Notes under the pieces: model-generated
Told to the model about the DNA's origin: nothing
What the model saw: only the letters and a program-made list of their open reading frames with translations
Databases searched by the model: none
Made by a program: the position numbers and the translations under genes
Shown here: positions 3,146-5,497 of the stretch, in pieces
Layout: each line of letters opens with the position of its first letter
How positions within the stretch are numbered: the stretch's first letter is position 1
Assembly (NCBI GenBank): GCA_947627155.1
Contig: CANQUX010000019.1
Location: 1 to 33,113 of the forward strand
Length of the DNA stretch: 33,113 nt
Direction: 5' to 3'
Origin: an uncultured Alphaproteobacteria bacterium
Lineage (GTDB): Bacteria > Pseudomonadota > Alphaproteobacteria > CAAHEQ01 > UBA3637

Positions 3146-3208
3146 CTTATTTTCGGCGGGAAGTGCCGGCTCGTGGAACGTGAGCCGGCGCGGTGTGCCG
3201 AAAATAAG
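3146..3208 (+). repeat. Palindromic repeat family A, copy 2
   Basis: The 12-bp outer stem CTTATTTTCGGC/GCCGAAAATAAG carries the same internal loop as copy 1. The inner stem GCCGGCTC/GAGCCGGC closes the 9-base loop GTGGAACGT. Confidence 0.92.
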
Positions 3209-3832: not shown

Positions 3833-5164
3833 ATGAAAAAACAATTAAAACAAATTCAAAATCAAGCCCAGGAAGGGCGCAGTATGGTTGAAATGCTCGG
3901 CGTTTTGGCAATCATCGGCGTTCTGTCAATCGGTGGCATTGCCGGATACAGAATGGCGATGAATCGATATCAGGCGAATCAAATTGCGAATGAAATCAAT
4001 CTCATGCGTACCGATGCAAAAATGAAAGTTGCCCGCGGCGTGGAATTATTGCTCGGTTCGCCGTACGATGACGAAAAGCATTTGAATTTTAATGCAAATT
4101 ATGGCGTTGAGGTTAAATTTGAGGAGATAGAAACAGACACGCCGGGTGAAACGGAAAAAGGTTATTCGTTTACGTTATCAAACATTCCTGATGGGGTATG
4201 TAGGCCGTTAGTGACTTTATTAGACAACATGGACGACACGGCTGATATAACAATAGGTGGCAAAAGTTATTATGATGAGAATGCGAGTGAGGATTTCTGC
4301 GGTGAAACGAATGAAGTAATGGTCGCCTTTTCAACCAAAGACATAGGCGGTGTGAGCGGCGGAAGCAGCAATCCGGAGGAACCGGAGCCGGAATGCAATG
4401 ATGAAACGTGTCTGGGAGGAACGTGTAATGAAGGAGTGTGCAAATGCAATGACCCCACTGAATATTGGACGGGTTACGGGTGCACAGCCTGTCCTGAAGG
4501 GGCGCGACAAGAAGATGGAACGTGTAAATGCACGGAAGAAGGGAGCCATTTAAAAGGCAGCGCGTGCATCACGTGTCCGGCAGGTGTTGCAGAATGGAGT
4601 GATGCGGTGGACGATTGCGTTTGTAAAGAAGCCGGCAAATTATGGACCAGTGACGGAAAATGCATTGATAATGTGTGCAATAATGGACAACCTTGCCCTG
4701 ATGATGAGGACGGTAATCCGCAATATTGTTATATGAGTAGTATTTCTTGCGATAAAGGGGTTCCGAGCGCAAGCAGTGGTACATGCACGTCGGTAACAGA
4801 GGGCAGTTATCGCGAAGTAACAGTAACAAATGGTACAGGTACAAAAACGATTTATGTGTCAAAATCAAGTAGTTTGAATTGGTGGGCAGCAGATGCCTTT
4901 TGCCAAGCATTAGGAAGGAAATTAGGCAAGCCTATTCACTTGGTGAGTGTAGGAGATTTGGGGTGTCCAAAAAGCAATGCTTCCTCTTGCCCTGATAACT
5001 CCTATGGCAAGTCATTGGCAAATCAATTGCGCATTAATGATTATGGGTGGACAAGTACAACCGTAAGTAGTACTCCCTGCAGAGCGTACAACGTCAGCCT
5101 TGACTTTGGTGACGTCTACGACCACGCTCGCTACAGCTTCCACACCTTCGCCTTCTGTGAGTGA
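3833..5164 (+). CDS. Pilin-like, Cys-rich, CTLD-like surface protein, 443 aa
   Basis: Residues 1-14 form a short basic leader. The prepilin peptidase site is G/RSMVE, with Gly at -1 and Glu at +5, followed by a hydrophobic N-terminal helix to about residue 45. Residues 45-175 form a pilin-like head with two Cys. After a Ser/Pro/Glu linker (175-187), residues 188-310 are a chain of Cys-rich, EGF-like modules (CxGGTCNEGVCKC and similar). Residues 320-443 are CTLD-like, with WWAADAFCQALG, LVSVGDLGC and a final AFCE. A GGAGG motif precedes the ATG by 8 bases. Type IV pilin-type proteins are processed and assembled in the inner membrane; this one would display a binding domain. The last stretch (5075-5164) has a distinct codon style. 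It sits between oppositely oriented A repeats. Adhesin function is inferred. Confidence 0.85.
   Translation: MKKQLKQIQNQAQEGRSMVEMLGVLAIIGVLSIGGIAGYRMAMNRYQANQIANEINLMRTDAKMKVARGVELLLGSPYDDEKHLNFNANYGVEVKFEEIETDTPGETEKGYSFTLSNIPDGVCRPLVTLLDNMDDTADITIGGKSYYDENASEDFCGETNEVMVAFSTKDIGGVSGGSSNPEEPEPECNDETCLGGTCNEGVCKCNDPTEYWTGYGCTACPEGARQEDGTCKCTEEGSHLKGSACITCPAGVAEWSDAVDDCVCKEAGKLWTSDGKCIDNVCNNGQPCPDDEDGNPQYCYMSSISCDKGVPSASSGTCTSVTEGSYREVTVTNGTGTKTIYVSKSSSLNWWAADAFCQALGRKLGKPIHLVSVGDLGCPKSNASSCPDNSYGKSLANQLRINDYGWTSTTVSSTPCRAYNVSLDFGDVYDHARYSFHTFAFCE
5075..5164 (+). other. Candidate hypervariable tail (DGR-like variable region)
   Basis: From TAC at 5087 to TGT at 5158 all 24 codons end in C or T (19 in C, 5 in T). 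Codons immediately upstream are mixed and AT-ending. The encoded tail (YNVSLDFGDVYDHARYSFHT...) forms the last strands of the CTLD-like fold, which is where DGR variable regions sit. The GC shift continues past the stop codon. No template repeat or reverse transcriptase is present in the window. Confidence 0.4.
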
Positions 5165-5203
5165 GGCCGGCTTTTGAGAGGACGAAGCCATCGCCCCTCC
5201 CGA

Positions 5204-5237
5204 TGCCCCGCCTTTACGGCTTCCATTCAGCGGGGCA
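5204..5237 (+). repeat. GC-rich hairpin downstream of the candidate variable tail
   Basis: TGCCCCGC (5204-5211) pairs with GCGGGGCA (5230-5237) around an 18-base loop. No T-run follows, so it is not a standard terminator. A weaker GGCTT/AAGCC pair lies at about 5169-5189. Confidence 0.6.
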
Positions 5238-5248
5238 CCTCTCCTCTC

Positions 5249-5303
5249 TTTTCGGCACACCGCGCCGGCTCACACTTCGCGAGCCGGCACTTCCCGCCGA
5301 AAA
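5249..5303 (-). repeat. Palindromic repeat family A, copy 3 (inverted)
   Basis: On the minus strand it reads as the family A consensus: TTTTCGGC, GGGAAGT, inner stem GCCGGCTC/GAGCCGGC, GCGGTGT, GCCGAAAA. Only the apical loop differs from copy 2. Confidence 0.92.
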
Positions 5304-5350
5304 TAAGAGAGAGAAATTATCACCTGCGAATGGGAAAAAAATAAAATCAG

Positions 5351-5412
5351 CTTTAATTCTGCCTCCGCGCCGGCGCATATTCTTCGCGCCGACACTTCCC
5401 GCCGAAAATAAG
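5351..5412 (-). repeat. Palindromic repeat family A, copy 4 (inverted, decayed arm)
   Basis: The arm GCCGAAAATAAG and the CTTCCC loop are kept at the right end, and the inner stem is now GGCGC/GCGCC. The left arm reads CTTTAATTCTGCC and has lost much of its pairing. The rest of the 5165-5497 gap holds copies 3 and 4 and AT-rich sequence with no gene. Confidence 0.75.
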
Positions 5413-5497
5413 AAAAAAAGCAAATACAGTTACCCCCAAAAAAAATATCAGTCAAAAATAAGAGACTGTGCCGAAATGATAGCTTTTCTATCTGTTT

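Follow-up and report, generated by a model that had tools for sequence, protein, structure and literature searches.

The locus considered here raises the question of why a gene for a 443-residue, pilin-like protein ends in a stretch of codons unlike the rest of its own sequence, and whether that stretch is written by a diversity-generating retroelement (DGR). The gene lies in the window, the whole 33,113-nucleotide stretch of DNA that was analysed, which is contig C19 of a 1.56 Mb assembly in 32 contigs (G000, 95.83% complete). The host is probably a gut alphaproteobacterium. The original prediction, made from the window, held that the tail is the variable region (VR) of a DGR target gene. Feature coordinates are collected in Table 1.

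Table 1. Features of the target gene and its 3′ flank, in window positions
Feature	Positions	Strand	Basis
DGR target gene, 443 aa	3833..5164	+	ORF; own-genome matches; weak Pfam matches
C-type-lectin-like domain (common to family)	4805..5161	+	alignment A1, AlphaFold model, structure matches
Variable region (VR)	5075..5164	+	paralogue tables, entropy vs real template, codon-identity jump
GGCC(A/G)GC directly after stop	5165..5171	+	common to nearly all VR genes
Hairpin, 8-bp GC stem, 18-nt loop (ATGCCCCGC...GCGGGGCA)	5203..5237	+	genome copies; fold

The predicted run of 24 consecutive C- or T-ending codons was located at 5087-5158, behind the mixed codons CCC TGC AGA GCG with which the tail opens. 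Within the gene body, C or T closes 51% of the codons and C alone 20%; the corresponding values for the other genes of the window are 49% and 20%. The chance of a run of this length is ~8e-8 per position and ~4e-5 across the gene. C endings were counted in 18 of the 23 scored codons of the tail, and 0 of 20,000 synonymous resamples, drawn with the codon usage of the genes of this window, reached that count; the C excess claimed for the tail is therefore real. Related C-type-lectin-like (CTLD) genes (MTWWSAQNYCQALTR...) stand at both contig ends (34-462 and 32640-33080). As had been stated, the C/T-ending pattern was not found in either of them, and their codons are ordinary. Repeats like these CTLD genes at both ends may be the cause of the break in the assembly here.

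The encoded protein has a type IV prepilin-like N-terminus (EGR|SMVEMLGVLAIIGVLSIGG), a Cys-rich middle and a C-terminal C-type-lectin domain ending in the VR. The prepilin-type motif is readable in the sequence as a G, an E at +5 and a hydrophobic stretch, and Pfam matches to PilS and N_methyl are weak and below the cut-off. Because T2SSE-family ATPases are encoded in the same genome, a pilus or pseudopilus could plausibly display the protein. The region 4748-5161 was modelled with AlphaFold at a pLDDT of 91.8 and a pTM of 0.85. Structure comparison of the model returned C-type lectins at Z about 10-11; Foldseek E-values were weak, the best (2.7e-3) being for Legionella Lcl, and the solved DGR variable proteins Mtd and TvpA were not found among the fold matches listed. 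In the model the tail domain adopts a C-type-lectin fold, which is completed by the VR as its last three strands, and the alternating variable residues of the VR would face outward. For these lectins we infer surface display and ligand binding. When the protein was used as the query, 109 matches were obtained in the 1.56-Mb genome, most of them covering the prepilin-like N-terminus. About a quarter of the 109 end in DGR tails, an extreme expansion of a pilin-like family.

With the tail and its flank as DNA query, 80 matches were obtained in the genome, about 20 of which are other gene tails. A deduced template, generated from the tails by setting the variable bases to A, matched 25 places, whereas a strict IUPAC pattern of the tail gave 0 matches because too many of its bases were fixed. 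At least 25 dispersed genes carry the same tail pattern, or 27 including two more diverged tails (L009, L020) added by eye beyond the 25 template matches, and every tail read is the end of a gene. The original remark that the tail is specific to this copy holds only inside the window and is wrong for the genome as a whole. Codon-aligned, the tails read TCC TGC NNC GCG TAC NNC GTY NNC CTY NNY NNY GGT NNC GTC in the first half and NNC NNC NNC NNT CGC, about 4-8 NNC codons, TAC GCC TTA TGT GAG TGA GGCC in the second. For the gene of the window the pattern is TCC/CCC TGC NNC GCG TAC NNC GTC NNC CTT NNC NNT GGT NNC GTC followed by (NNC)3 NNT CGC NNY... GCC TTM TGT GAG TGA.

Variation in the variable codons falls on bases one and two, and base three stays nearly constant within each column. 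Codon bias fails to produce such fixed third bases, and an AAC/AAT template with random bases placed opposite adenine yields exactly that pattern. NNC and NNT codons can never be stops. Two linked haplotypes were distinguished among the tails, CTT NNC NNT (haplotype a) and CTC NNT NNC, which points to the use of at least two template haplotypes. The tail of the window gene is of haplotype a, with non-A changes of CCC for TCC, AGA for AAC (third base) and TTC for TTA. In one pair of genes, L034 and L036, which are 87% identical upstream, the VRs differ almost only at the NN positions. The tails also differ in how many variable codons they have: L074 has additional ones behind CGC, L079 contains an internal duplication, and L020 is a further case. 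This suggests slippage in AAC runs or the use of several templates.

The deduced template was searched in 43 genomes of the family; the template of this organism is expected to match TGCAACGCGTACAACGTCAACCTTAACAATGGTAACGTCAAC. The best match was 96% identical over 74 nt (G041:C69:843-916) and is the template repeat lying between the avd and RT genes of a genome of a sibling genus. Entropy of the own tails, scored over 54 positions by the base of this G041 template, was 1.62 bits at A and 0.35 elsewhere (p=7.6e-10). This is an independent test, because the haplotypes had been deduced from the tails themselves. Compared with the nearest deduced haplotype, 23 aligned own tails were changed in 51% of template-A cells and 4.5% of non-A cells, and 7 of the 23 have no non-A change across 54 nt. 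The concentration of differences at template adenines is the hallmark of a DGR variable region. At non-A positions the consensus of the tails is close to identical to the template, as judged against that of the sibling genus. The claim that the tail is a DGR variable region is borne out by variation confined to template-A positions and by the existence of the deduced template as a real repeat in that genus.

Cassettes were found in six genomes of the same bacterial family (G003, G001, G005, G023, G026 and G041) in the order avd-TR-RT; in three of these, G001, G003 and G005, which belong to the same genus as the host, Avd, template and RT stand in a row. In the complete cassette of G003, 15 of 16 mismatches between the template and the VR of the nearby target fall at template A. 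The corresponding count for G001 is 16 of 19, with one extra codon allowed. The RT of the relatives is homologous to the RT of PDB 8ub7, its nearest solved structure (E 2.9e-25), which we take to be the BPP-1 DGR enzyme, and also matched PHROG 1423. Their Avd matched NCBIfam NF033474 (DivGenRetAVD) at E 1.8e-12, with a score of 47.5 bits that falls short of the curated cut-off of 80; it also matched the PHROG 'Avd protein of DGR'. By these homologies the cassette proteins of the relatives are assigned as DGR proteins. The public records of the relatives are metagenome assemblies called Alphaproteobacteria, from roe deer cecum, water buffalo rectum and an isolate SIG53 (source not stated).

One in-frame stop (TAA or TAG) is present in the RT genes of two relatives, at L105 about 1478 in G041 and in L052/L102 of G005, reflecting decaying cassettes, a strain mixture or an assembly error. 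A second template-like AAC-rich repeat occurs in G023 (L097 1463-1550, G023:C16), on a contig other than that of the RT and preceded by the same TTTTAAAAGGGTCAATCACC stretch as the cassette templates; it is perhaps a solitary template.

The RT relatives from phages, plasmids and viral contigs all showed less than 60% identity. The template pattern was found in GTDB genomes only in three relatives already known, neither it nor the 3′ end of the tail was found in viral contigs, and the deduced template was not found in phages and plasmids. No mobile carrier was therefore found.

The GC-rich sequence said to continue beyond the stop and the hairpin said to follow it are both real. The four bases of the GGCC after the stop are conserved in 25, 25, 24 and 26 of 26 copies counted, and this segment is likely to be the 3′ end of a VR/IMH-like homology. 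The hairpin ATGCCCCGC-loop-GCGGGGCA has 24 copies in the genome, against 0 for a reversed control, all of them 3′ of a VR gene and mostly 22-40 nt beyond the stop. It is a candidate cis-acting element of the target site. A hairpin 3′ of the VR is needed by the DGR of Bordetella phage BPP-1, and phage DGR hairpins have GC stems of 7-10 bp and a 4-nt loop (PMC3240598).

The tail at 5075-5164 is very probably the VR of a DGR target gene, one of at least 25 scattered targets that are written in trans by an RT, an Avd and a template. Trans action had been predicted, and fits the dispersed genes, near none of which an RT or template lies. An RNA copy of an AAC/AAT-rich template would be reverse-transcribed by the DGR RT with Avd, the adenines being misread. 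The cDNA would then take the place of a target gene's 3′ end, a step in which the shared 3′ sequence and the GC hairpin probably serve as guides. In this way the outward residues of the last lectin strands on the pilin-like protein would be re-drawn with no new stops, and the scaffold codons of the tail would be reset to the template. Retrohoming would take place in this organism itself. Whether the 25 or more pilin-borne lectins are under continuing trans hypermutation from at least two templates, forming a combinatorial surface repertoire and not one variable receptor, we judge to be evenly balanced. Such a repertoire would also involve gain or loss of variable codons in the stretch bounded by the fixed CGC and GCC TTA, possibly through slippage in AAC runs.

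The template-like copy beside an RT that was to be sought in the same genome is absent from its assembly. In the own assembly (95.8% complete) no match was found to RVT_1 or a relative's RT, nor to the Avd alignment A2, and the 25 matches of the deduced template, the best at 88%, are all gene tails. RT, avd and template were likewise not found in G009, a 76% complete genome with 10 such tails. Within the genus, tails are few in the genomes that hold a cassette, and no cassette occurs in the genomes rich in tails. The diversifier therefore lies in the missing part of the genome or has been lost. Loss would leave the tails as static fossils of a DGR that once wrote them and whose cassette has disappeared from the lineage, a reading that shares the core claim made above and that we consider possible, if doubtful. 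It agrees with the lack of RT, avd and template in both assemblies, and Treponema denticola isolates with VR genes and neither RT nor template exist (PMC4891356). The pilin gene adjoining avd in sister genomes also had no match at E 1e-30 in the own genome, which prevented the demonstration of an empty cassette site, and non-A changes are numerous in some of the tails (L038, L020). Against this, every non-A site equals a template haplotype in the 7 unchanged tails although the upstream codons have drifted. At conserved residues, codon identity between two random own paralogues rises from 0.58 before the tail to 0.90 inside it, the jump falling at the TCC codon of the paralogues (window position 5075, S110 of the model). 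Haplotype a, moreover, makes up about half of the own tails and was seen in none of those of the 76% complete G009, which suggests writing since the split from G009. Several contigs of the own genome stop at or near these repeated genes. A cassette in the missing or unbinned part of the genome is on balance favoured over recent loss.

A DGR origin can also be set against explanations that need no reverse transcriptase. Gene conversion among paralogues, coupled with diversifying selection on the binding site, could draw on a big family of paralogues whose 3′ ends are homogenised and whose 3′ flanks are alike, which would allow conversion. It leaves unexplained why variation is limited to template-A sites with fixed third bases and why a matching template stands beside RT and avd in a relative, and it was rejected as very improbable. 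A last explanation, by plain codon bias or by insertion of a GC-rich repeat (a palindromic element) giving C/T codon ends by chance, has next to no probability. GC-rich dispersed repeats are indeed present downstream (5260-5413), but they start after the VR and occur away from this gene too, C-ending codons make up only 20% in window genes, and the tail encodes protein in which the lectin pattern is conserved. This explanation was rejected, as it is contradicted by the codon-aligned tail columns and by the entropy measured against the G041 template.

The family cassettes agree with the own tails in the lectin target domain (WWxA...C, ...YALC), in the AAC/AAT template pattern and in having the VR at the 3′ end of the target gene. 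They differ in holding RT, Avd and template, whereas the own bin has at least 25 VR genes and no cassette; in G001, G003 and G023 a target gene is close to the cassette, and the VR genes observed in each genome were few. Of the DGRs described elsewhere, the TvpA-type element of T. denticola is similar to the trans reading proposed here, with one cassette and several remote lectin-fold targets, but has 2-7 targets per isolate of the FGE-sulfatase type, against at least 25 on pilin-like proteins (PMC4891356). The BPP-1 DGR (Mtd) shares adenine-directed change, a C-terminal lectin-fold VR and a GC hairpin 3′ of the VR, and differs in being phage-borne, with a single cis target and a hairpin with a 4-nt loop close to the VR (PMC3240598); the own hairpin agrees in place and stem but not in its 18-nt loop, and its stem begins mostly 22-40 nt beyond the stop. 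Remote variable proteins of cyanobacteria (PMC7517822) and those of Thiohalocapsa PB-PSB1 (PMC10907252) are, as here, C-type-lectin targets in dispersed paralogues with trans action. Their targets are mostly signalling or conflict proteins, many of them with local cassettes, whereas those found here are prepilin-like.

The mechanism, a DGR, is already known, and what is unusual is the target number and the pilin scaffold. The DGRs described so far mostly act on a single target or on a few. In the openly accessible literature compared, separate DGR target genes reach up to seven per genome, in T. denticola (PMC4891356), while highly repetitive templates can have from a dozen to hundreds of VR copies, one example having 21 VRs in a single gene (PMC6642488). 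A set of at least 25 separate target genes of pilin-like type, in a genome of 1.56 Mb, is a marked extension of known DGRs, for which no priority is claimed. If the reading is true, a very small genome would hold a surface repertoire with which host glycans, neighbours or phages are recognised, and would be a natural test case for the way a single DGR reaches many targets. The case also shows that tails alone suffice to recognise DGR targets and to predict their template when an assembly holds no RT.

Also observed were imperfect palindromes, GC-rich and about 50-60 nt long (CCGCGCCGGC...GCCGGCACTTCCCGCCGAAAATAAGA), at 2912-2970, 3149-3207, 5260-5308 and 5365-5413 of the window and at L010 1182-1564. 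Over 40 copies are present in the genome, some in rows about 105 nt apart and often near VR genes.
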